This document shows positions 11,145-54,505 of a DNA stretch of 64,000 bases, piece by piece. Position 1 is the stretch's first letter; each line of letters opens with the position of its first letter. The position numbers and the translations under genes were made by a program. Under the pieces are notes generated by a model that saw nothing but the letters and a program-made list of their open reading frames with translations, was not told where the DNA came from and ran no database searches. This DNA is from Bacteroidales bacterium (lineage in GTDB: Bacteria; Bacteroidota; Bacteroidia; Bacteroidales; Paludibacteraceae): the NCBI GenBank assembly GCA_015061165.1, contig SUXC01000012.1, forward strand, positions 1 to 64,000, in the 5' to 3' direction.

Positions 11145-11680
11145 CTGTAGTTAGCAGGACCTTGATAAGTAGCATGATAGCGAGTAGAATCCGTGGTATA
11201 GAGCAGTATGTCTAAACAAATGTCCTTTTCGCTAATATATTCTAATTGCAATTCTCCTGCTGTAAAACCGATTATGCGTTGTATTTGGCTCTCTTGAATA
11301 TCCAATAGGTAGCAACCTGTGATGTTGCCGCCCTCAAAGTCTTTATAGGGCAGGAATGTTCTTACTTGTGTGGTTGTATCCATGCGGTAAATGCCCTCTT
11401 GCAGTACGCTATCGGTCATGGAGAGAAATATGTCCGAGAAATAGAGATTCAGACCTGTACCTGTGATATGGTAGGCAGAGTCAAATGCCAATCCTTCGGT
11501 CAATAAATCCACGGAGAACACTTGTCTGTCTAATAGCGGATAGTATTGCTTGTGCCATTGCAGGTCAGCAATCACATAGATGCTGTCGTATGGCATAGCA
11601 TCATTTATCTCGTTTTTGTTGCCATGTTGGCATGCGGTCAGCATTGCCAATAGTAGTAATATGATATATTCTTTTTTCAT
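11141..11680 (-). CDS. Predicted lipoprotein, unknown
   Basis: 179 residues with a short signal peptide and lipobox LTAC (Cys about 17). The mature part is strand-rich and acidic; I do not recognise a family. The stop overlaps the xerD start (ATGA), and the gene sits between xerD and a LolE-type permease, so it is co-transcribed with housekeeping envelope genes. Confidence 0.6.
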
Positions 11681-11693
11681 ACTCTTTCCTTTA

Positions 11694-11725
11694 ACTCCTA
11701 AACTCCTAAACCCCTGAACTCTTAG
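11694..11725. repeat. Octanucleotide array between lipoprotein and permease genes
   Basis: Four consecutive 8-mers of the type actcctaa, running into the last codons of the permease gene. Part of the short-period repeat class described in the findings. Confidence 0.6.
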
Positions 11726-12935
11726 CTTCCTGCACCTTCCTCGCGGGTATCCATGCGGCGAGGAAACCTAATGTTAATACCACGGCTGCCACTATCAGCA
11801 CATCGGTGGTCTGTACGGCTACGGGATAGGCGGATACAACATATTCTGTCCCGTTACCTAATTTCAGTATGCCCAAATGTTCTTGGGCTAAACATACAAT
11901 CAGTCCGATTGCCAACCCCACCATTGCGCCTAAAGCCGAGATCAGCCAACCTTCGAACAGGAAAATGCGCTGAATCATCTTTTTGTTTGCGCCCAAGTGA
12001 CTAAGTGTTTGTATGTCCGTTTGTTTATCTATGATAAGCATGGATAGTGAGCCGATGATATTGAACGATGCAATCAGTAGGATAAACACCAATAGTAGGG
12101 TTGTCAGCAGTTTCTCTACCCGCAGGATGCGGAAGAAGTCGGCCTGTTGTTCGTAGCGGTCGAGTACGGCAAACCCTTCGCCCAATAGCGATTGTATGGC
12201 TTTTTTTGCTTGTTTTACAGAGGTGTGTGGGGCTACTTTGACGAGCAACGCGCTGACTTCGTGGTTGCCGTAGTCTAATAGTCGGCGTGTGAGGTCAATA
12301 TCCACGAGCATAACTTCGTTGTCGTATTTCACTTGTTGTACGGCAAAGGTGCCTGCGATAAAGCACACCTCATCGTTGAAGGATTGGTCGGGGCGAAGCA
12401 TATTCACTTTGGCATTGCGCTTGGGGGCATAGAGTTGCAATGGACTGATAAACCGTGCGCCGATACCCATTTGCCATGCTAATCCTTGTCCTAATACGGC
12501 GCGGTCAAAAGCTCCGTCATATACCTCGTAATGTCCTTCGGTGATGATGTTCTCAATATGGGTGAGGGTAGGGAACACAGAATCCACACCGTACAATCGC
12601 ACGGGCATCTGTTTGTCCTCGAACTGCAATAATGCTGTTTCCTCTATGCTCTGGCTCACCATTGCCACTTCGGACAATTGGCGCAACGCATCAAAGCGTT
12701 CGCCTTGGTCGTGAAACGATTTCCCACTGACGGCTTCGATACGAATATCGGGGTCGAACTGCGAGAACAGTTGTTCCACCATCACACCAAAGCCGTTCAT
12801 CACGCTCAGCACGCATACCATAGCAGCAGTTACGACACCCACAGCAGCGGCACTGATACCACTGATGATGTGAATGGCATTGTACTGTTTTTTAGCGAAC
12901 AAGTAACGCCATGCTATTTTCAGTTCGGTTTTCAC
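11706..12935 (-). CDS. LolC/LolE-type ABC transporter permease
   Basis: 409 residues with the MacB/FtsX-family layout: one N-terminal membrane helix (about 22-48), a large periplasmic domain (about 50-265), and three C-terminal helices (about 275-300, 325-350, 375-395). The start (MKTELKIAWRYLFAKKQYN) matches the lipoprotein-releasing permease group. With a LolD ATPase it would pull lipoproteins from the inner membrane toward LolA. No ATPase is adjacent. It overlaps rbfA by 4 bases. Confidence 0.85.
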   Translation of the reverse strand: MKTELKIAWRYLFAKKQYNAIHIISGISAAAVGVVTAAMVCVLSVMNGFGVMVEQLFSQFDPDIRIEAVSGKSFHDQGERFDALRQLSEVAMVSQSIEETALLQFEDKQMPVRLYGVDSVFPTLTHIENIITEGHYEVYDGAFDRAVLGQGLAWQMGIGARFISPLQLYAPKRNAKVNMLRPDQSFNDEVCFIAGTFAVQQVKYDNEVMLVDIDLTRRLLDYGNHEVSALLVKVAPHTSVKQAKKAIQSLLGEGFAVLDRYEQQADFFRILRVEKLLTTLLLVFILLIASFNIIGSLSMLIIDKQTDIQTLSHLGANKKMIQRIFLFEGWLISALGAMVGLAIGLIVCLAQEHLGILKLGNGTEYVVSAYPVAVQTTDVLIVAAVVLTLGFLAAWIPARKVQEAKSSGV

Positions 12936-40123: not shown

Positions 40124-40767
40124 ATGAGTGCAACGGATTATTTAAATAATGCACAAGAGTGGTTAGCTCAGCAATCTCAAAGAACGATCGATTACCAATG
40201 GGAGATTCAGCATCACAACCAAATGCACAAAGCCTACGAAACCTCCTGGTAGGTCTTTCTCGATTTGAGCAATTTCCAGTAGCAATACAATGGGCAAGGG
40301 AAAACCATTGTGTTGTAGATATGTTTGGCGCTTTTGCAAAAGAGCGACATTTGTTGTTATTCCAAAGTGGTAACGAAAGCGAGAATTGGATTGATCCCAC
40401 CACAAACTTGGTCTATAAAATGAATAATCTCATGCATGTTGGTGGAGATATACTAAAACTATTAAATAGAGTTGAGTTATACAACCAATTATTCCCACAC
40501 ATTGCATTGCGGTTCGTGGGGTTTCATGTGATGAGTGAAAGTAATGCTTATCCTGTATTCACACAACCATTTGTAGATAATGTGCGTTTCGCTACAGTAG
40601 AAGAGATTCTCGCATATATGAAATCTCGCGGGTTCAAGCCACAAGATAGAGATGGTGTTTTCTCAAATGGATATTACTTGTTGAGTGATGTTAAACCCAA
40701 AAATGTATTAGCATCTGATAATGGTTTAGCCATATTTGTGATTGATGCTGATGTCTCCTTGGTGTAA
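40124..40767 (+). pseudogene. PolyVal-type kinase-like gene with probable frameshift
   Basis: From ATG 40124 one frame reads MSATDYLNNAQEWLAQQSQR and stops at about 40252 (AYETSW). The protein continues in the next frame from about 40246 (LVGLSRFEQFP) to 40767. One missing base near 40244-40247 would join them as AYETS-LVGLSRFE. The C-terminal 150 residues hold kinase-like motifs: SDVKPKNVL (catalytic loop) and FVIDADV (metal loop), as in kinase domains of phage polyvalent proteins. An alternative GTG at 40159 would give an intact 202-residue protein. Confidence 0.55.
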
Positions 40768-40827
40768 CATTCTCATTCGTACACGAACCATTTGGCATTT
40801 TGTACAAGCCCATTTATCTCTTCCACA

Positions 40828-40854
40828 CCAACCGCCCCCACAAAGGGCGGTTGG
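40828..40854. terminator. Repeat hairpin copy 2
   Basis: 10-bp stem ccaaccgccc/gggcggttgg with a 7-nt loop, 60 bases after the kinase-like gene. Confidence 0.75.
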
Positions 40855-40869
40855 CTGTAATTATATATA

Positions 40870-41247
40870 GTTGGAAAAGTGTAAGAAAAGCCCAAGATAA
40901 TGTTGGAAAAATGTAAAAATCACAAAAAAAACAATTTGGGAAACGCTATTTCCCCAATTAGAAAACTATCCAAGCAAAGAAGAACTGAAAAAACTAATGG
41001 CAAATAATTCACAATAATACTCCCATAGAATAAGGTATATTGCATAATTTTTGCACAATAATTTTCAAATCTCAAAAAAAATATAGTACCTTTGCAGCAA
41101 GACACCTCTCCCGCAGAGTTACCATACCAACTGCCCCCACAAAGGGCGGTTGGCTGTAATTATATATAGTTGGAAAAGTGTAAGAAAATGCCCAAGATAA
41201 TGTTGGAAAAATGTAAAAATCACAAAAAAACATGTTGGAAAAGTGTA
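40870..41247. repeat. Duplicated leader module with five GTTGGAAAARTGTA motifs
   Basis: About 80 bp after hairpin copy 2 are repeated almost exactly after hairpin copy 3 (from 41154). The 14-mer GTTGGAAAARTGTA occurs at 40870, 40902, 41169, 41202 and 41234, with 32-33-bp spacing inside each cluster. The last three lie just upstream of the DUF4143 promoter. Confidence 0.8.
41063..41153 (+). other. Promoter directly followed by hairpin copy 3
   Basis: TTTC/TACCTTTG at 41063-41094 resembles the promoter in front of the kinase-like gene at 40068-40098 (about 50 bp of near identity upstream). It is followed after only 32 bases by hairpin copy 3 (41127-41136/41144-41153). A transcript of about 55-60 nt could result. 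Confidence 0.55.
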
Positions 41248-41262
41248 TTTTTTCATTTTTAT

Positions 41263-41293
41263 TTTGTTGATTAATAGAAAATTACTACCTTTG
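41263..41293 (+). promoter_or_regulatory. Promoter of DUF4143 ATPase gene
   Basis: TTTG at 41263-41266, 19 bp, TACCTTTG at 41286-41293. The likely transcription start is next to the TTG at 41302, so ATG 41314 is the preferred start. Confidence 0.75.
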
Positions 41294-41313
41294 CAGAAAA
41301 ATTGAGTGAAATT

Positions 41314-42681
41314 ATGCTATATCGCAAGAATGAAAGTCGTATTCGCGAGTTCTTTCGCAATGATAAAAGAGCTCTATTAGTGACAGGTGCAAGACAAACA
41401 GGAAAGACTTACTCTATTCGCAAAGTAGCGAAGGAGTGCTTTGATGTTGTTGTGGAGATAAACTTTGTCGAAAATCCAGAAGCCATTGCCATGTTTAGCA
41501 ATGTTAACAACTCTCAAGAACTACTCTTGAGAATTAGTGCATTCGCTAAACAACATTTAATTCCTCATAAAACAATCATCTTCTTTGACGAGGTGCAAGA
41601 ATGCAAAGAGATTGTAACTGCCATCAAATTTCTTGTGGACGAAGGTAGTTATCACTATGTACTAAGCGGATCACTATTAGGCGTAGAACTACACGATATT
41701 AGGAGTATTCCTGTCGGGTATCTATCTGTCCTTGAAATGCACCCCCTCGACTTGGAAGAGTTTGCAATCGCACAAGGAGTATCGCCTATAGTTTTGTCTC
41801 ATCTAAAAGAGTGCTACGACCAACAAAAAGCAGTTGATCATTTAGTACACAACAAGATGTTGGATCTTCTGCGTCTATATCTCATTATTGGCGGTATGCC
41901 TCATGTAGTAGAAACGTATCTAACAACTAATAATCTCAAACGAGTATTGGAAATACAAAAAGATATTATCCGTCTTTACAAACAAGATATTGCTAAATAC
42001 GACAAACAACGCAAACTAAATATAGCCGACATATATAACCTCATTCCTTCAGAACTTAATGCAAAGAACAAGAGATTCATTCTTAAACAATTGAACGAAA
42101 AAGGACGTTTCTCAAAGTACGAAAATAGTTTTGTATGGTTGCAAGATGCAGGAGTGGCAATACCTGTATATAATATTGATGAGCCCACAGTGCCATTGTT
42201 GTTAAGCAAACAGCGTAATCTATTCAAACTATTTTTGAGTGATGTAGGACTATTAGCTGCTATGTACGCAGGTAATATACAACAAAAATTACTTTCTGGA
42301 GAATTAGAAATCAATTTTGGGGCAATCTATGAGAATTTCGCCGCACAGGAATTGTACGCACATGGCTTAGCTGGTGACGAACATCAATTATTCTATTTCA
42401 ACAGCAAACAGCAAGGAGAATTAGATTTTGTAATAGAAAATGATGGCGCTATACTACCTATTGAAATCAAATCGGGCAAGGCATATCATCGTCATAATGC
42501 ACTAAACAATGTATTAAGTAATCAGCAATATGCTATACCAAAAGCCATTGTGTTTAGCAACGAAAACGTGGAAGAACAAGATAAAGTGATATATTTCCCT
42601 ATTTATATGATAATGTTCTTACAAAAACAAGAACTCAGCGATGATGCCATCTATAAATTTGATATTTCAGGCTTAAATTAA
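41314..42681 (+). CDS. AAA+ ATPase with DUF4143 C-terminal domain
   Basis: 455 residues from ATG 41314. Walker A GARQTGKT (about 25-32), Walker B TIIFFDEVQE, sensor YVLSGSLLG, then a winged-helix region and a C-terminal DUF4143 part with a PD-(D/E)XK-like pattern (FYFNSKQQGELDFVIENDGA followed by IEIKSGK). Such ATPases occur in many copies in Bacteroidetes; the function is uncertain. It sits beside phage-like and repeat-rich DNA. Three spaced 14-mers upstream suggest specific regulation. Confidence 0.85.
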   Translation: MLYRKNESRIREFFRNDKRALLVTGARQTGKTYSIRKVAKECFDVVVEINFVENPEAIAMFSNVNNSQELLLRISAFAKQHLIPHKTIIFFDEVQECKEIVTAIKFLVDEGSYHYVLSGSLLGVELHDIRSIPVGYLSVLEMHPLDLEEFAIAQGVSPIVLSHLKECYDQQKAVDHLVHNKMLDLLRLYLIIGGMPHVVETYLTTNNLKRVLEIQKDIIRLYKQDIAKYDKQRKLNIADIYNLIPSELNAKNKRFILKQLNEKGRFSKYENSFVWLQDAGVAIPVYNIDEPTVPLLLSKQRNLFKLFLSDVGLLAAMYAGNIQQKLLSGELEINFGAIYENFAAQELYAHGLAGDEHQLFYFNSKQQGELDFVIENDGAILPIEIKSGKAYHRHNALNNVLSNQQYAIPKAIVFSNENVEEQDKVIYFPIYMIMFLQKQELSDDAIYKFDISGLN

Positions 42682-47715: not shown

Positions 47716-48717
47716 ATGAGCACTTTCTTATTCATAGTACAAGAATACATCCGGTTGGGGATACCCGAACAGATTGATTACAAGAAATTTTACTTGTACT
47801 CGCTCATTACGCACTCTACTGCCATTGAGGGCTCTACAGTTACCGAAATAGAAAACCAATTGCTGTTTGATGAGGGTATCACTGCACCTGGACGAACGTT
47901 GCAGGAACAAATGATGAACCTCGATCTAAAACATGCCTACGAAGTAGCACAAGAACGAGCAAAACATCACACTCCATTTTCGGTAGCAATGTTGCGTAAC
48001 CTCTCTGCTTGTCTTATGGAACGTACAGGCTCCACATACAACACACCTTTAGGGACCTTCTCTTCTGCATCAGGCGACCTGCGCTTGCTTAATGTCACCG
48101 CAGGTTTTGGAGGACGCTCGTACATGGCATTTGCCAAAGTGCCACAGGCATTGCAAGAGTTTTGTGAATGGCTCAACAACGAACGGAAACAAATCAATAA
48201 GGCAGACATGTTGTCCGCCTATCGCCTGAGTTTCTTGGCACATTACCGCTTGGTGACTATTCATCCTTGGGCAGACGGAAACGGAAGAATGGCACGATTG
48301 GTGATGAATATGTTGCAATGGGAGTATGACCTTATTCCTGTTAAAGTGCTCAAAGAGCAAAAAGCACAATATATTCAAGCACTGATTGATACGCGCGAAC
48401 AAGACAACGAGGATATCTTTGTGGATGCTATGTTGCGTATCCATCAACAAAATCTATCTGCCGAAATAGCAGCGTTCAATGCTTCAATGGAGGCAAATGA
48501 TACAAAAGATGATACAAAAAAACTGACAGATAGACAGCAGATTATATTGGATTTGATTCGTGAAGATGAAACAATAACCATCTCGCAAATGATACAAAAG
48601 ATACAAGTATCAGAGATAACCATCAAACGAGAACTATCTATCCTCAAAAAAATAGGAGTTATTAAGCGAATAGGCGGACGAAAAGGGGGTAAATGGCTAA
48701 TTACTAAACATTCATAG
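47716..48717 (+). CDS. Fic-family AMPylase-like protein with C-terminal winged helix
   Basis: 333 residues. N-terminal inhibitory motif STAIEG (residues about 34-39, class II type), Fic core HPWADGNGRMAR starting near His183 (matches HxFx(D/E)GNGRxxR with Trp for Phe), and a C-terminal wHTH domain (LDLIREDETITISQMIQKIQ, then VSEITIKRELSILKKIG). Fic enzymes transfer AMP or related groups to protein targets; the wHTH suggests self-regulation or DNA binding. It lies next to the three-gene island. Confidence 0.9.
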   Translation: MSTFLFIVQEYIRLGIPEQIDYKKFYLYSLITHSTAIEGSTVTEIENQLLFDEGITAPGRTLQEQMMNLDLKHAYEVAQERAKHHTPFSVAMLRNLSACLMERTGSTYNTPLGTFSSASGDLRLLNVTAGFGGRSYMAFAKVPQALQEFCEWLNNERKQINKADMLSAYRLSFLAHYRLVTIHPWADGNGRMARLVMNMLQWEYDLIPVKVLKEQKAQYIQALIDTREQDNEDIFVDAMLRIHQQNLSAEIAAFNASMEANDTKDDTKKLTDRQQIILDLIREDETITISQMIQKIQVSEITIKRELSILKKIGVIKRIGGRKGGKWLITKHS

Positions 48718-49059
48718 CTTATACCTTTTATTAAGATTTTCTTCTATTTGCCCTTGATTATACCTACCGACCGAACACCGAGGGAAAAACCGAGACAACT
48801 CCAATAGGCAATAACGGCAAAATAGTACTTTTGTTAAGATTCCTTTCCGTTAACCTTCTCTAGCTGCTTCGTGTAAAAGACCAAGGAGAAAGCAAAGACG
48901 AACCAAGGAACGACCTTAGAACTCAAAATTACAAAAAATACTTTTTATTAAGATGTGTAATCAAAGTTTATAATCAATAGCAGGATAAGGCGCATCCATT
49001 AAGTTTCAAATCGTTAATAAATATCCTACTAAACATAGTCATAATAGCATTATATTAAA
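48718..49059. promoter_or_regulatory. Island upstream region with three TACYTTTTATTAAGAT copies
   Basis: No gene. The motif TACYTTTTATTAAGAT occurs at 48722, 48826 (one base shorter) and 48939, about 104 and 113 bp apart, all on the plus strand and ending about 105 bases before the DUF1848 start. 11-bp-like runs (accgaccgaac/accgagggaaa; accaaggagaa...accaaggaacg) fill the spaces. A classical TTTG/TAnnTTTG promoter is not clear. Confidence 0.55.
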
Positions 49060-50118
49060 ATGGCATGGGATAAAATACAAATACAACGTGAAAATGGCGA
49101 AGTGGTGGAAGCACAAGCACCAATCATTATATCTGCAAGTAGAAGTACAGATATTCCTGCTTTTTATACAGACTGGTTTTTTGACCGATTAAAAAAAGGT
49201 TATTCAGCTTGGACTAATCCGTTTAACGGAGTTAAAAGTTATATTTCATACGCGAATACTCGTTTTATTGTTTTTTGGTCAAAGAATCCTGCACCGCTAT
49301 TACCGTATTTAGGCTATTTGCGCGAGAAGAATATTAACTGTTATATACAATTTTCTCTGAATGATTACGAATCAGAAAAATTAGAGCAGGGAGTTCCACC
49401 TCTGCACTTCCGTATTAAAACATTTAAGCAGTTAGTTGATAAATTAGGTAAAGGACATGTCATTTGGCGATTTGATCCACTGATTTTAACTAGAGAGATT
49501 AGTAGTCATTCTCTTCTTAAAAAGATAGAATATATAGGAGACCAATTATATGGATATACGGACAAATTAGTATTTAGTTTCGCAGATATTATATCCTATC
49601 GAAAAGTCAAAAGTAACTTAGAGAAGAACAATATACATTATATTGATTGGACAGAGGAAGGAATGAGTGAATTCGTAAAAGGGCTGATTGAACTCAATAA
49701 GAAATGGAATTATCAATTAGCCACATGCGGAGAGAAATATCATTTTGAGGGCATAGAACACAATCGTTGTATAGATGATAGTTTGATAATACGTTTTGCA
49801 TATAACGATCCAATATTAATGAATTTCTTGAAGGTTAAACTATGCGATATGCCTTCTCCCGATATATTTGGAGAGATAGCTCCCTTACCAAAAGATGCGA
49901 TTGTACTACCTAATGGAAAATATGTAATACATGGCAACAATCAAGATAAGGGACAACGCCAATTCTGTGGTTGCATTAACAGTAAGGACATCGGAGAATA
50001 CAATACTTGCCCACATCTTTGTGAATATTGCTATGCGAACACAAGTAAAGAAATCGCATTGCAAAACTATAGGAATAGTAAACAAAATCCAAATGGTGAA
50101 ACAATAACAGGAAGATAA
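49060..50118 (+). CDS. DUF1848 protein with C-terminal CxC...CxxxCxxC cluster
   Basis: 352 residues, cytoplasmic. DUF1848 pattern: IIISASRSTDIPAFYTDWFF, GYSAWTNPFNG, FIVFWSKNPAPLLPYL, CYIQFSLNDYE, VIWRFDPLILT. The C-terminus has C303-x-C305 and C317-x3-C321-x2-C324 (CPHLCEYCYAN). CxxxCxxC is the spacing that binds the [4Fe-4S] cluster of radical SAM enzymes, and the rest fits a TIM-barrel, so a radical-SAM-like enzyme is plausible (inference). One base separates it from the next gene. The three-gene operon is A/T-richer than its surroundings. Confidence 0.8.
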   Translation: MAWDKIQIQRENGEVVEAQAPIIISASRSTDIPAFYTDWFFDRLKKGYSAWTNPFNGVKSYISYANTRFIVFWSKNPAPLLPYLGYLREKNINCYIQFSLNDYESEKLEQGVPPLHFRIKTFKQLVDKLGKGHVIWRFDPLILTREISSHSLLKKIEYIGDQLYGYTDKLVFSFADIISYRKVKSNLEKNNIHYIDWTEEGMSEFVKGLIELNKKWNYQLATCGEKYHFEGIEHNRCIDDSLIIRFAYNDPILMNFLKVKLCDMPSPDIFGEIAPLPKDAIVLPNGKYVIHGNNQDKGQRQFCGCINSKDIGEYNTCPHLCEYCYANTSKEIALQNYRNSKQNPNGETITGR

Positions 50119-50119
50119 T

Positions 50120-53100
50120 ATGAATTATTTGGAAGGATTGGATGATATATCGGATATTACATTCGATAAAATTATAAACTTGGCAAAAAATAATGTTCCT
50201 CTAGAAAGGAGAGATAATCCATGGATAGGACTAAAGCATGGCCTCAAATTACTTTCTAATGAAGATGAGTTAGCACAATATATTAGTGCATATGGTATTA
50301 TGCACCGAGAAAAAATTTATGCAGCTCTTGACACAATCCAAAATTGTGAAGAGTTCTTTTCAAAAAACATAACAATTATAGACTGGGGTTGTGGACAAGC
50401 ACTGGCAACCATGTGCTTCTATGATTATATGCGTCAAAGAGGTATTGAACCCTCTATTTCGAATGTCATTCTCATAGAGCCATCAACTATTGCTCTTCAT
50501 CGAGCAAAAGAACATATACAGAAATATTCAGCGCGACCAACTATCAAATTAGTCAACAAATTAATTGATAATGTTAATTCATCAGATATCCATACTATCA
50601 ATACTGACATTGTATTACATTTCTTTTCCAATATTTTAGATATTGACACTATTGATCTTAAAAAGCTATCTTTATTGATACAAAACGAAATAACATTTGA
50701 TCAATTCTTCTTTTGTGTAGGACCACAAAATATAGGGGCTTCTAGAATCGCCGAATTTGCGAAACTATTTAACATTACTGAAAATGATTTGATAAGTAAA
50801 CAAGAGGGATTTTTGCGTACAAGAGGAACAATCAGTATGATGACATTTAAAATTCTCTCAAATACTCCTGAGATTATCAAAGTTGAATTCTATAGAAATA
50901 AAGATAATGACACGCATTTTAACACTTTACTAAAAAGGGTCATCAAAGATTTACCTTCTTGTAATTCTTTAAGTGAAAATGCTCTCGCTTTCTATCGGGC
51001 AGTTATTTCATTAGAAAGAATGAAATCTGCTGGTATTGGCGAAGAATTCTATTATCCGTATACATTGGAAGAAGAAAATAATAACACTCACAAAGTTAAA
51101 TTCAACATTGATATATGTGACAATCCTCAGTTTGAAACTATATTTACAAGAAATTTAAACCCCTCAATTACGAAATGGCCAAAACACTTAAATATTGGAT
51201 TAAGCATAAACATAGATGATACTCGCTATCGCTTATTTGAATATATATATCCTTATACGGATTTAAAGGACATTAACATTGAGGAACAATTTATTTCTGT
51301 CAATTTAGCAATGTTTTCTATAAACTCTGACATTGCTGACAAATTAGAACTGACGGAAAACATCATTCAAGTCTTAACCGAAATATTAACAAACAAAGAA
51401 ACTACATTATCTGATCTTGAGTCAATACTGCAAGATGCTATCGGACATAATGTTTCATTGCATCCTTATTTATCATTAACTCTTTCATCTGAAGCACCAG
51501 TCTTTGCACAAATAAATTCAGAGTTAAAAAGTTTATTTCATAAGAAACCTTCAGGACTGATGTTAGATTTTTTAACAGGAAGTATTAAAAAAAATGATAT
51601 CGGCTCTATTCATGAAGACGCAATTATTAATGTTGTTGATATAGATTATAGTCAGCGGCAGGCGATTGCAACGGCACTAAATAGTAAACTTTCTGTCATC
51701 ACAGGTCCTCCTGGCACGGGTAAAACACAGATGATTGTCAATCTGCTTGCTAATGCGCTATTGCATGGCAAATCTGTACTCGTAGCAAGCAAAAACAACA
51801 AGGCTGTAAACAATATTAAGGAGCGTTTCGACAATATAGATTCTCACCAATATTTTCTACGATTTGGTTCTCGAGATCTAATAACCTCAAAATTGTTGCC
51901 CACACTGGATAGCTATGATGAAAAAATTAAAAACAATGATTATGATCCAGTATACTTAACATCAATACGTGAAGAGTATGACAAACAATGCAAACTAATT
52001 TCCGAAACACGCCAAGTACTTGGAGAAGTAATTCAACTAACTGATTTAAGACTTGATTTGGAAAATTCATTAAGGCAGTTAGTCAATCATTTTACTCAAA
52101 TAGAAAAAGAGTATCACCTATCTCTTGAGAATTTACGCGAAGAAAATAAGGAAATAGCCGAAAGTGCAGAGTCTAACAAATACAATTGGGACAAGACAGC
52201 CAATAATATTAGCAAATTGACAAATACACTTTATACTTACTCCTTTATTATAAAGAGGATTTTCTTTAATTTATTTTTGAAGAAGAAATTCTCGCAACGT
52301 TTTCAGGAAGATTTATCGTTACTTCCTACAAAAATTACAAATCACATAGAAAATGAGATTGGTACAGAGCATTTATGTGATGTATATAACTATAATCAAT
52401 TAATTCAATGTTGTACAATAGAACAAAATTGGATTAATCGCATACTTGAATATCGGAAGAATAGACATTTGATTTGTTCACGATTTGAGATTGAATGTGC
52501 TAGATTTAAAAGTGCGGAACAAGAGATTAATGAGAAGATTCATACTGTCTTAGAAAATATAAAAGAGATTTCTCAAAGCAAATCTCAAGAACAGTTGATT
52601 GAAATTATTGAGAGTGCAAAAAAGTATATCTCTTCAATCGGAGCAGACTTAGTTACTGAGTTGATAAAGTTACGACTAAATCAAAAAGATTCAGCAAATA
52701 TAATTGCTAAATACAAAAATTATTTTCCAGACCAAATACCTTGGAAGGACGAGGAATTAGAAGAGTTTACGAAAAATGCATATAATTTTATTAATATTTT
52801 TAACATTAATAGCGTCACTAGTTTATCAGTGAAAAGTGCTTTCCCATTACAAGAAAATCTCTTTGATATTGTTATTATAGATGAGGCTTCACAATGCGAT
52901 GTCGCATCTGCGTTGCCATTAATTTATCGAGCCAAACAACTTGTCGTAATTGGAGATCCGTTGCAATTAAAACATATCACTTCTATTACAACAAGCGAAG
53001 AGATGGCTATCAAAGAACATTTGTCACTTAGTGAAAATACATTTATTCGGTATGCAAGTTATTCTTTATGGGATTATTGTCATGACTTGATAACTAGTGC

Positions 53101-54124
53101 GAATATTAATAATAGACAGATAGTTTTAGATAACCACTATAGATGTCATCCACAAATCATAGGTTATTCTAATGAAATGTTCTACCAGAAACGATTAGGT
53201 CGTCCTTTGAAGGTATGTACAAACTCACAAAAGAATCATTTATCTCATAAGGGTATCATATGGGTTGATGTTGTTGGCGAACAACAAAATAATATCCGAA
53301 AAGTTAATAAGGAAGAAGTTGAAAAATCACTTTCTATTGCTGTAGAACTCGCTGAAAAGCACAAGGACATTACTATTGGTATCATTTCACCATTTAAGCA
53401 TCAAATAGAAGAAATCAATGCTCAAATCCCCGAAGAATTACGCAATAGAATAGTAGCAGATACGGTTCACAAGTTTCAGGGCGATGAACGAGATGTGATT
53501 ATTTATTCTTTGGTGGTCACAAACAATTCACCAGAACGACTAATAAAATGGATTGATATCAGTGTACCAAACCTTGTTAATGTTGCAGTTACTCGCGCCC
53601 GTTCAACGCTTTATATTGTTGGTAATCGTGACTATATAAAACAACATTCTCACAAAGAGTTACCATTAGGTCGTCTCGTTATGTATACAGAAAATAATTG
53701 TTTTGTTGAAAATATCAATCAAGAAACATTTATTATAGATACAAATGTTTTTGTAGATTGTCCAGATATACTGAATCGTATCAATCCAAATATGCAAATT
53801 ATAATATCTGCAAAAGTCGTAGATGAACTGGATAAACTCAAAGTAACTTTAGATGATTCAAAAAAAGGCAATGCAGAATTAGCTCTCAGATATCTCAATC
53901 GAAGTTTCGATGGACATCATATTAGAATGGAATGTGCAGATATGGAATATCTACCAGTAGATTTTAATAGAAAAAATCCTGACAATATGATTTTGTCTAT
54001 TGCATTAAAATACAAAAACCAGAACCCTATCCTTATCACTTCGGATAATGGTTTACAATTAAAAGCCAAGGGTATGAGAATAAATACATTAACATTACAC
54101 GATTTTCTACACAGCAACAAATGA
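50120..54124 (+). CDS. Methyltransferase-like / SF1 helicase / PIN nuclease fusion
   Basis: 1334 residues. (1) About 1-260: Rossmann methyltransferase-like domain with SAM motif IIDWGCGQALAT (Asp88) and acidic VILIEPS (Glu120), closest in look to Rsm22-type enzymes (weak). (2) About 500-1175: SF1 helicase, Walker A GPPGTGKT (529-536), a coiled-coil insertion of about 340 residues, DEASQ (921-925), GDPLQLKH, DTVHKFQGDERDVIIYS, VAVTRAR (1155-1161), as in Upf1/Dna2-like enzymes. (3) About 1200-1334: PIN domain with all four acidic residues (Asp1207, Glu1236, Asp1288, Asp1309). Stop overlaps the next start. It probably acts on RNA or DNA; the target is unknown. Confidence 0.85.
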   Translation: MNYLEGLDDISDITFDKIINLAKNNVPLERRDNPWIGLKHGLKLLSNEDELAQYISAYGIMHREKIYAALDTIQNCEEFFSKNITIIDWGCGQALATMCFYDYMRQRGIEPSISNVILIEPSTIALHRAKEHIQKYSARPTIKLVNKLIDNVNSSDIHTINTDIVLHFFSNILDIDTIDLKKLSLLIQNEITFDQFFFCVGPQNIGASRIAEFAKLFNITENDLISKQEGFLRTRGTISMMTFKILSNTPEIIKVEFYRNKDNDTHFNTLLKRVIKDLPSCNSLSENALAFYRAVISLERMKSAGIGEEFYYPYTLEEENNNTHKVKFNIDICDNPQFETIFTRNLNPSITKWPKHLNIGLSINIDDTRYRLFEYIYPYTDLKDINIEEQFISVNLAMFSINSDIADKLELTENIIQVLTEILTNKETTLSDLESILQDAIGHNVSLHPYLSLTLSSEAPVFAQINSELKSLFHKKPSGLMLDFLTGSIKKNDIGSIHEDAIINVVDIDYSQRQAIATALNSKLSVITGPPGTGKTQMIVNLLANALLHGKSVLVASKNNKAVNNIKERFDNIDSHQYFLRFGSRDLITSKLLPTLDSYDEKIKNNDYDPVYLTSIREEYDKQCKLISETRQVLGEVIQLTDLRLDLENSLRQLVNHFTQIEKEYHLSLENLREENKEIAESAESNKYNWDKTANNISKLTNTLYTYSFIIKRIFFNLFLKKKFSQRFQEDLSLLPTKITNHIENEIGTEHLCDVYNYNQLIQCCTIEQNWINRILEYRKNRHLICSRFEIECARFKSAEQEINEKIHTVLENIKEISQSKSQEQLIEIIESAKKYISSIGADLVTELIKLRLNQKDSANIIAKYKNYFPDQIPWKDEELEEFTKNAYNFINIFNINSVTSLSVKSAFPLQENLFDIVIIDEASQCDVASALPLIYRAKQLVVIGDPLQLKHITSITTSEEMAIKEHLSLSENTFIRYASYSLWDYCHDLITSANINNRQIVLDNHYRCHPQIIGYSNEMFYQKRLGRPLKVCTNSQKNHLSHKGIIWVDVVGEQQNNIRKVNKEEVEKSLSIAVELAEKHKDITIGIISPFKHQIEEINAQIPEELRNRIVADTVHKFQGDERDVIIYSLVVTNNSPERLIKWIDISVPNLVNVAVTRARSTLYIVGNRDYIKQHSHKELPLGRLVMYTENNCFVENINQETFIIDTNVFVDCPDILNRINPNMQIIISAKVVDELDKLKVTLDDSKKGNAELALRYLNRSFDGHHIRMECADMEYLPVDFNRKNPDNMILSIALKYKNQNPILITSDNGLQLKAKGMRINTLTLHDFLHSNK

Positions 54125-54414
54125 TGAATAATATAATTCAAGAATATTTGCATAAGGCTATCACAAATGGCGATACCATAACTATTAAATATATTAAACC
54201 TAATGGTGAATCTTCTATTAGGCAAATTAGTGAGATTTGCTATTCTTATGAATTTGGTGGTGATAACGAATATATTGAAGCTTTCTGCCATACTAGAAAC
54301 GAAAGAAGAACATTTAAGATAAGTCGAATCATTGATATTGAAGATATTAATAAAAAAGAAAGCATTTCTCAAGTCAAAAAGAAAAAGACTGCTTATACAG
54401 GTAACATGTTATAA
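54121..54414 (+). CDS. Small WYL-like domain protein
   Basis: 97 residues. The core TITIKYIKPNGESSIRQISE, YIEAFCHTRNERRTFKISRI matches the WYL fold (SH3-like strands with the Arg pair and 'F-x-x-x-R-I' end). WYL domains sense nucleic-acid or nucleotide ligands and regulate defence systems (family knowledge). There is no helix-turn-helix, so it may act on the upstream helicase/nuclease by protein contact. It overlaps the helicase gene (ATGA at 54121), or starts at ATG 54124. Confidence 0.72.
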   Translation: MMNNIIQEYLHKAITNGDTITIKYIKPNGESSIRQISEICYSYEFGGDNEYIEAFCHTRNERRTFKISRIIDIEDINKKESISQVKKKKTAYTGNML

Positions 54415-54459
54415 AATTGCGGATTAAAGCAGTATATATATGATATTTATCATATTCAT

Positions 54460-54490
54460 TTTGTAAAATCACAAATTTTCATTACCTTTG
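54460..54490 (+). promoter_or_regulatory. Promoter of recJ
   Basis: TTTG at 54460-54463, 19 bp, TACCTTTG at 54483-54490. It separates the island from the housekeeping genes to the right. Confidence 0.78.
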
Positions 54491-54505
54491 CAGCAAATTT
54501 GAACG

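Follow-up and report, generated by a model that had tools for sequence, protein, structure and literature searches.

What brings a methyltransferase-like domain, a helicase and a nuclease together in a single bacterial polypeptide? The question is raised by a gene in the 64,000-nucleotide stretch of DNA analysed here (the window; contig SUXC01000012.1 of assembly GCA_015061165.1), which comes from a Bacteroidales bacterium of the Paludibacteraceae. The gene is a single exact open reading frame (ORF) of 1334 amino acids with 0 internal stops, and it encodes an N-terminal head with a class I methyltransferase fold, a UPF1-like superfamily 1 (SF1) helicase and a C-terminal PIN nuclease domain (Table 1). 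According to the explanation that we favour, with a probability of about 0.58, the locus is a laterally acquired conflict module, most likely anti-phage, in which a constant modifying pair is combined with an exchangeable effector. An initial annotation, made from the sequence, had already read the polypeptide as a three-part fusion, and the ORF, Pfam matches, fold and relatives bear this out; it had missed the DUF1848 partner, the WYL gene, the lateral insertion and the nature of the head as a shared module. Separate genes might conceivably have been joined by an annotation or assembly error, but the order head–helicase–PIN recurs in three loci from other assemblies (L063, L064 and L090) and a two-part order in five more, which effectively rules out such an artefact. 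We found no description of the methyltransferase–helicase–PIN fusion, or of its linkage to DUF1848 or AlkB, in the literature searched, which mostly excluded subscription papers and preprints.

The identity of the head is established by fold and family evidence, despite a weak Pfam signal (Methyltransf_32, E 0.0032, under the cut-off). Its model, which covers residues 1–500 and was built from 95 rows (96 first assembled minus one phage-record row), has a predicted local distance difference test score (pLDDT) of 88.2. Foldseek found 385 matches in the PDB at E ≤ 0.001, with methyltransferases making up most of the top matches listed, and in VIA comparisons 944 of 1000 chains reached Z ≥ 8, consistent with a seven-stranded Rossmann-like fold. 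The first eight VIA rows are human METTL17 and yeast Rsm22 chains (Z 14.7–17.3; next family 13.7), the best being 8csp chain 7 (Z 17.3 over 228 residues, 3.5 Å, 13% identity), which we take to be METTL17 from our reading of the assembly-intermediate entries. Thus, the Rossmann methyltransferase fold of residues 1–250 and its kinship with Rsm22 had been guessed correctly, as had the S-adenosylmethionine (SAM) motif at residues 88–120. Indeed, motif I (DWGCGQA, 88–94) and the strand-2 acid E120, as in class I SAM methyltransferases, are near-invariant among 95 heads: D88 is present in 94, G92 and Q93 in all 95, and E or D at position 120 in 94, while H167 and N171 (93/95) and D174 (93/95) are conserved in the cofactor pocket and after strand 4. 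The head could alternatively be a non-catalytic SAM-binding or ribosome-binding adaptor controlling the helicase-nuclease. Yeast Rsm22, in which SAM binding has been lost and the fold kept, provides a precedent (according to the available part of PMC9892005), and the window head has A at position 94, where G is found in 61 of the 95 heads (A in 33); however, the strong conservation of the cofactor-pocket and post-strand-4 residues argues against such an adaptor, which we consider unlikely. Similarly, among the roles initially offered for the head (sensor, pseudo-enzyme or RNA-modifying unit), that of a pseudo-enzyme becomes less likely because the SAM-site residues are nearly invariant, and the predicted head may carry out methyl transfer.

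Although the head shares its fold with Rsm22/METTL17, it differs from these proteins in being fused to effectors, patchy in distribution and mobile. PF09243 (Rsm22) matches nothing in the genome of the window at E ≤ 0.001 and is not among the 11 Pfam families matched by any of the 95 heads (E ≤ 0.01). Rsm22/METTL17 proteins are marked by four conserved cysteines that bind a 4Fe-4S cluster (available part of PMC12375894); this motif is not seen in the heads, whose Cys-rich columns are C91, C199 and, partly, C99. Membership in the Rsm22 family is ruled out by the missing PF09243 match and Cys motif, and, as judged from the model, the head is an Rsm22-like fold relative. The head profile does weakly find true Rsm22 proteins in Bacteroidota (L267, E 7.0e-6; L270, E 7.6e-5), which the Pfam Rsm22 profile matches at 3.1e-18 and 4.7e-19, respectively.

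The helicase carries the motifs GPPGTGKT (529–536), DEASQ (921–925), GDPLQLKH (945–952) and NVAVTRAR (1154–1161), so that the SF1 motifs lie at 529–1161, as first proposed. It matches Pfam AAA_11 (1.1e-26) and AAA_12 (1.3e-30), both over the cut-off, and its sequence-closest PDB chains are SMUBP-2, SEN1 and UPF1, as expected of a UPF1-like SF1B helicase. Its motifs are like those of these three proteins, whereas the window protein adds the methyltransferase, the PIN domain and, between motifs Ia and II, a little-conserved insertion of about 320–340 residues in a nine-row alignment, in agreement with the coiled insertion of about 340 residues noted earlier. The PIN domain, anticipated within residues 1195–1334, is recognized by the PIN_4 profile (E 5e-20 at 1204–1326, over the cut-off), and all four of the acids predicted within 1207–1309 are in place. 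This helicase is common to nine loci including the window. PIN is present in four of them, with an intact tetrad in the window and L064 and an eroded one in L063 and L090, and is absent from the other five. Furthermore, in L005 (3–1893) a different SF1 helicase is followed by the same PIN (57–60% identity; 60% in the best segment) with an intact tetrad. This helicase and PIN lie in overlapping frames, perhaps owing to a frameshift. Given its patchiness among the helicase loci, the erosion of the tetrad in two of them and its occurrence with the other helicase of L005, PIN is an accessory that is gained, lost or decaying across loci.

The head is found in 25 of 393 genomes of the order, in 19 of them with E < 1e-20, and in 13 of 375 genomes of the phylum, nine of which are weak matches; the two of these nine that were checked are Rsm22. 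In all, 380 pattern matches and 310 relatives were obtained on scanning 84,980 species genomes, and the 80 best relatives (79 loci) were kept. The kept relatives are mostly from Bacteroidota but also from cyanobacteria, Sulfurovum, Denitrovibrio and Bacillota. Classes were assigned to 77 of the 79 loci, as L067 and L070 break off within the gene. The assignment relied on the similarity of the tails, with Pfam searches of representatives, and near-duplicates such as L097/L098 were counted separately: 45 have a DEAD-box helicase, 9 a UPF1-like and 2 a UvrD-like helicase, 1 has LRR repeats, 4 are stand-alone heads and 2 are other, while in 14 the head is C-terminal in a protein about 490 amino acids long. 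Genome searches add Sel1, FGE-sulfatase and more UvrD-like partners. For example, L041 (685–3384, minus strand) joins DUF1848, the methyltransferase head and LRR repeats in one 900-residue frame, and in L266 (919–3618) a head fused to FGE-sulfatase domains (PF03781, 1.1e-86) lies downstream of DUF1848. On a tree of 95 rows (the window head and 94 locus heads, excluding duplicates and weak matches as well as L033 from a phage record, L015, which is split, and L067 and L070, which are truncated), the effector labels need 12 changes; this rules out free recombination of head and effectors, and the partners thus mostly travel with the head, swaps being few. Frequent carriage by phages is likewise rejected, as only 4 of 301 pattern matches in a viral collection encode a relative. 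Other genes accompany certain heads: in L066, an aspartyl-protease-like gene (11488–12171; PF13650, 3e-6) directly follows a PIN-less head-helicase, and a coiled-coil protein of about 200–280 amino acids, with an apparent C-terminal membrane segment as judged by eye, is repeatedly found after DEAD-type heads (L109, 12403–13233; L119, 10952–11557; L192, 13118–13909). The L109 protein matched no Pfam family over the cut-off.

What remains constant beside the head is a partner enzyme. In the window, a DUF1848 gene (PF08902, 1.5e-87; padloc RTasDUF1848, 2.2e-40) ends one base ahead of the fusion start. The first 30 VIA rows for its model (pLDDT 92.7) are all radical-SAM enzymes with modest Z of 7.1–9.1, including HemN (9.1), Elp3, spore photoproduct lyase, RlmN, viperin and PFL-activating enzyme; Foldseek gave 0 matches at E ≤ 0.001. 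Consistent with a radical-SAM enzyme, the segment CPHLCEYC (317–324) contains a CX3CX2C motif (C317, C321 and C324) whose cysteines are invariant in 60 rows. Because this motif lies near the C-terminus, whereas the aligned ranges in the matched enzymes mostly begin past the cluster loop, DUF1848 may be circularly permuted relative to radical-SAM enzymes. The predicted protein would be catalytic. Among the 77 loci, local profiles found DUF1848 alone in 48, AlkB alone in 16, the two together in 9 and neither in 4, so that 73 have a partner; L090, L111 and L115, which lack one, are cut at the contig start, and L126 represents a real absence. AlkB identity was confirmed with Pfam PF13532 on three representatives (3.1e-30, 2.5e-33 and 1.8e-41). 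All 85 partner ORFs share the strand of the head, and the partner is within 100 bp in 55 of the 77 loci and within 3.5 kb in 70. Moreover, across the 393 genomes of the order, DUF1848 occurs in 18 of the 19 with a strong head and in 62 of the 374 others (Fisher p 1.1e-12, with relatedness ignored). It is also encoded on all four viral contigs with a head (in one case as a fragment). The Moraxella plasmid L191 (7881–9473) combines a stand-alone head with AlkB, and an annotated viperin is encoded a few genes away; only two Moraxella records emerged when plasmids were searched with two heads.

In the mechanism that we propose, the constant core would be a nucleic-acid-modifying pair, namely, the Rsm22-like SAM methyltransferase head and the radical-SAM-like DUF1848 enzyme, the latter being replaced or supplemented by an AlkB dioxygenase in relatives. 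Head and DUF1848 (or AlkB) would act one after the other on a nucleic-acid base or nucleotide, and the variable part fused to the head would supply targeting or execution. The combination of a UPF1-like motor with a PIN nuclease suggests RNA as the target of the window variant, in which the helicase would translocate on RNA and PIN would cut it. AlkB and DUF1848 might instead serve demodification or direct-reversal repair, stripping marks or damage (e.g. phage DNA hypermodifications) and thereby making way for helicase or nuclease partners, with the head sensing the modified base. Both the AlkB and the radical-SAM classes have members acting on nucleic-acid bases, the fold relatives of DUF1848 include spore photoproduct lyase, two unrelated enzyme classes fill the same place and some loci lie inside BREX, all of which would suit this alternative. 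Nevertheless, the SAM site of the head is kept near-invariant, as would suit a writer, and we regard demodification as rather improbable.

The cassette was laterally acquired. GC content is 31–33% over 49–54 kb and 44–50% in most flanking kilobases. Moreover, an empty site was found by searching 18 RecJ regions from genus relatives: in G054 (L248), Fic (90.6% identity) is about 110 bp from RecJ, and, as the two sides match the window at 247 of 271 bases (up to 48710) and at 202 of 251 (from 54506), this relative lacks the cassette. In G040, a cassette without PIN lies on the opposite side of RecJ, and the other 16 regions contain neither empty site nor cassette. The insertion site is adjoined by a gene for a Fic-domain protein with a DeoR-like helix-turn-helix (47716–48717; padloc SoFic, 1.5e-29). 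A second low-GC stretch (40159–42681; 34–36%) may also have been acquired; it contains genes for a Kinase-PolyVal protein (PF18762, 4e-20) and an AAA_14/DUF4143 ATPase.

The surroundings of the heads are rich in defence genes. Some loci are inside BREX, as exemplified by L119, where PglZ (5.6e-54) and a methylase of the Eco57I type adjoin the head, and by L088, which has BrxL (3.4e-132), and a four-gene segment of L112 (3620–8648) encodes AlkB, an SF1 helicase, a 2CompART/2CompARG ADP-ribosylation protein and a protein with the head at its C-terminus. At padloc E ≤ 1e-20, 145 of the 221 flanking proteins, which were the ones scanned, hit 167 models, compared with 8 hit by 137 scanned controls (out of 209 proteins from 20 regions); the comparison counts models rather than distinct proteins, and many of the rows listed come from one family, PDC-S05. 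These data also bear on a possible function in translation or RNA quality control, in which the head would dock on the small ribosomal subunit while the helicase and PIN remove or cleave stalled mRNA, analogous to UPF1-mediated decay. Since mitochondrial Rsm22/METTL17, the best structural match of the head, binds h31 and occludes the mRNA channel (available part of PMC9892005), ribosome engagement is a concrete alternative, and a UPF1-like helicase with a nuclease tail would suit it. However, the patchy spread in the order, the low GC, the empty site, the defence-rich neighbourhood and the location within BREX are more in keeping with conflict than with housekeeping, and relatives have LRR, Sel1 or FGE-sulfatase parts in place of the helicase, making quality control an improbable function.

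Compared with known defence systems, the fusion most resembles parts of two. The helicase matches padloc MkoC (1.8e-58) and MkoA (1.7e-51), the best stretch of the MkoC match ending at residue 1196, ahead of PIN. Like MkoC of Mokosh type II, the fusion is a single polypeptide with a related SF1 helicase and a nuclease, but the Mokosh nuclease is PLD, whereas that of the window is PIN, with the methyltransferase head and the DUF1848 partner added. No PLD is among the 25 of 33 Pfam families listed for the fusion, in which the region after the helicase is PIN_4. With the NCBIfam models PLuB, ProA and Hhe, the fusion scores 119.8, 126 and 95.6, below the respective cut-offs of 999, 1500 and 2000. 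Among the 95 heads, padloc models matched include RT_UG25 (28), RT_UG35 (13) and C3a159, labelled methyl transferase (29). Where positions are shown, the UG25 match falls within the first 160 of 870 profile positions (12–122 in L092; 35–160 in the window head, E 9.8e-7). Together with the RTasDUF1848 match of the window DUF1848, these similarities indicate at the sequence level that UG25 reverse transcriptases share the core, the window head carrying helicase and PIN where UG25 has the reverse transcriptase; no reverse transcriptase domain is among the 25 of 33 Pfam families listed. The full UG25 protein was not retrieved, and the UG25 profile mostly matched the reverse transcriptase part of other proteins in 296 phylum genomes. 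The available part of the paper naming UG25 (PMC8934634) does not contain the word methyltransferase.

On its downstream side, the fusion is followed by a small WYL-domain gene (Table 1), which probably regulates the operon. A WYL-like ORF comes after the fusion in each of the four PIN loci (in L063 with E of only 0.0047, under the cut-off), and none was seen on reading the ORFs of the five PIN-less UPF1-type loci.

Table 1. Features of the fusion locus (window positions)
Feature	Coordinates	Strand	Basis
Inserted low-GC cassette, missing from relative G054	48711..54505	.	GC, flank comparison
DUF1848 gene, 352 aa, radical-SAM-like barrel, C-terminal CX3CX2C	49060..50118	+	PF08902, padloc, model
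Fusion, 1334 aa: methyltransferase head, UPF1-like SF1 helicase, PIN nuclease	50120..54124	+	ORF, Pfam, alignment
Rsm22/METTL17-like class I methyltransferase head, residues 1-250	50120..50869	+	Model, VIA, conservation
Linking region, residues about 265-490, modelled alpha/beta	50912..51589	+	Structure model
SF1 helicase core, residues 508-1170	51641..53629	+	Pfam AAA_11/AAA_12, closest PDB chains
Coiled insertion, low conservation, motif Ia to II, residues about 580-895	51857..52804	+	Nine-row alignment
PIN nuclease domain, residues 1204-1326; D1207, E1236, D1288, D1309	53729..54097	+	PIN_4 5e-20, alignment
Small WYL-domain ORF, 96 aa, ATG overlapping the stop codon of the fusion	54124..54414	+	PF13280 6.9e-9, over cut-off

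Several observations weigh against a conflict module built on a constant pair. In the 62 of 374 genomes mentioned above, which lack a strong head, DUF1848 occurs with no head detected and must therefore have other roles; often found alone, it is rejected as a partner exclusive to heads. Its structural assignment has no Foldseek counterpart at E ≤ 0.001, and the best VIA Z of 9.1 is modest. The padloc likeness of the helicase may be common to UPF1-like helicases in general. Finally, the absence of PIN from five of the nine UPF1-type loci and the eroded tetrad in two of the four that have it imply that cutting is not essential to the module. On balance, a laterally acquired conflict module, with a probable role against phages, still appears to be the best explanation of the locus.

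More tentatively, these loci might represent an undescribed conflict superfamily in which a constant core first places a mark on RNA or DNA and subsequently reworks it, and exchangeable modules read the mark or execute the response. The core would comprise the Rsm22-like head and DUF1848, as a radical-SAM enzyme with its cluster loop moved to the C-terminus, AlkB, or both in series; the modules would be UPF1-like helicases with or without PIN, UvrD-like and DEAD helicases, Sel1, LRR, FGE-sulfatase and reverse transcriptase. If so, one modular immune family would unite helicases, reverse transcriptases and orphan domains that are scattered and for the most part lack annotation, and the orphan family DUF1848 would gain a testable role. 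Furthermore, radical-SAM and AlkB chemistry would be interchangeable in defence, and bacteria would possess an RNA helicase–PIN effector recalling eukaryotic RNA decay.

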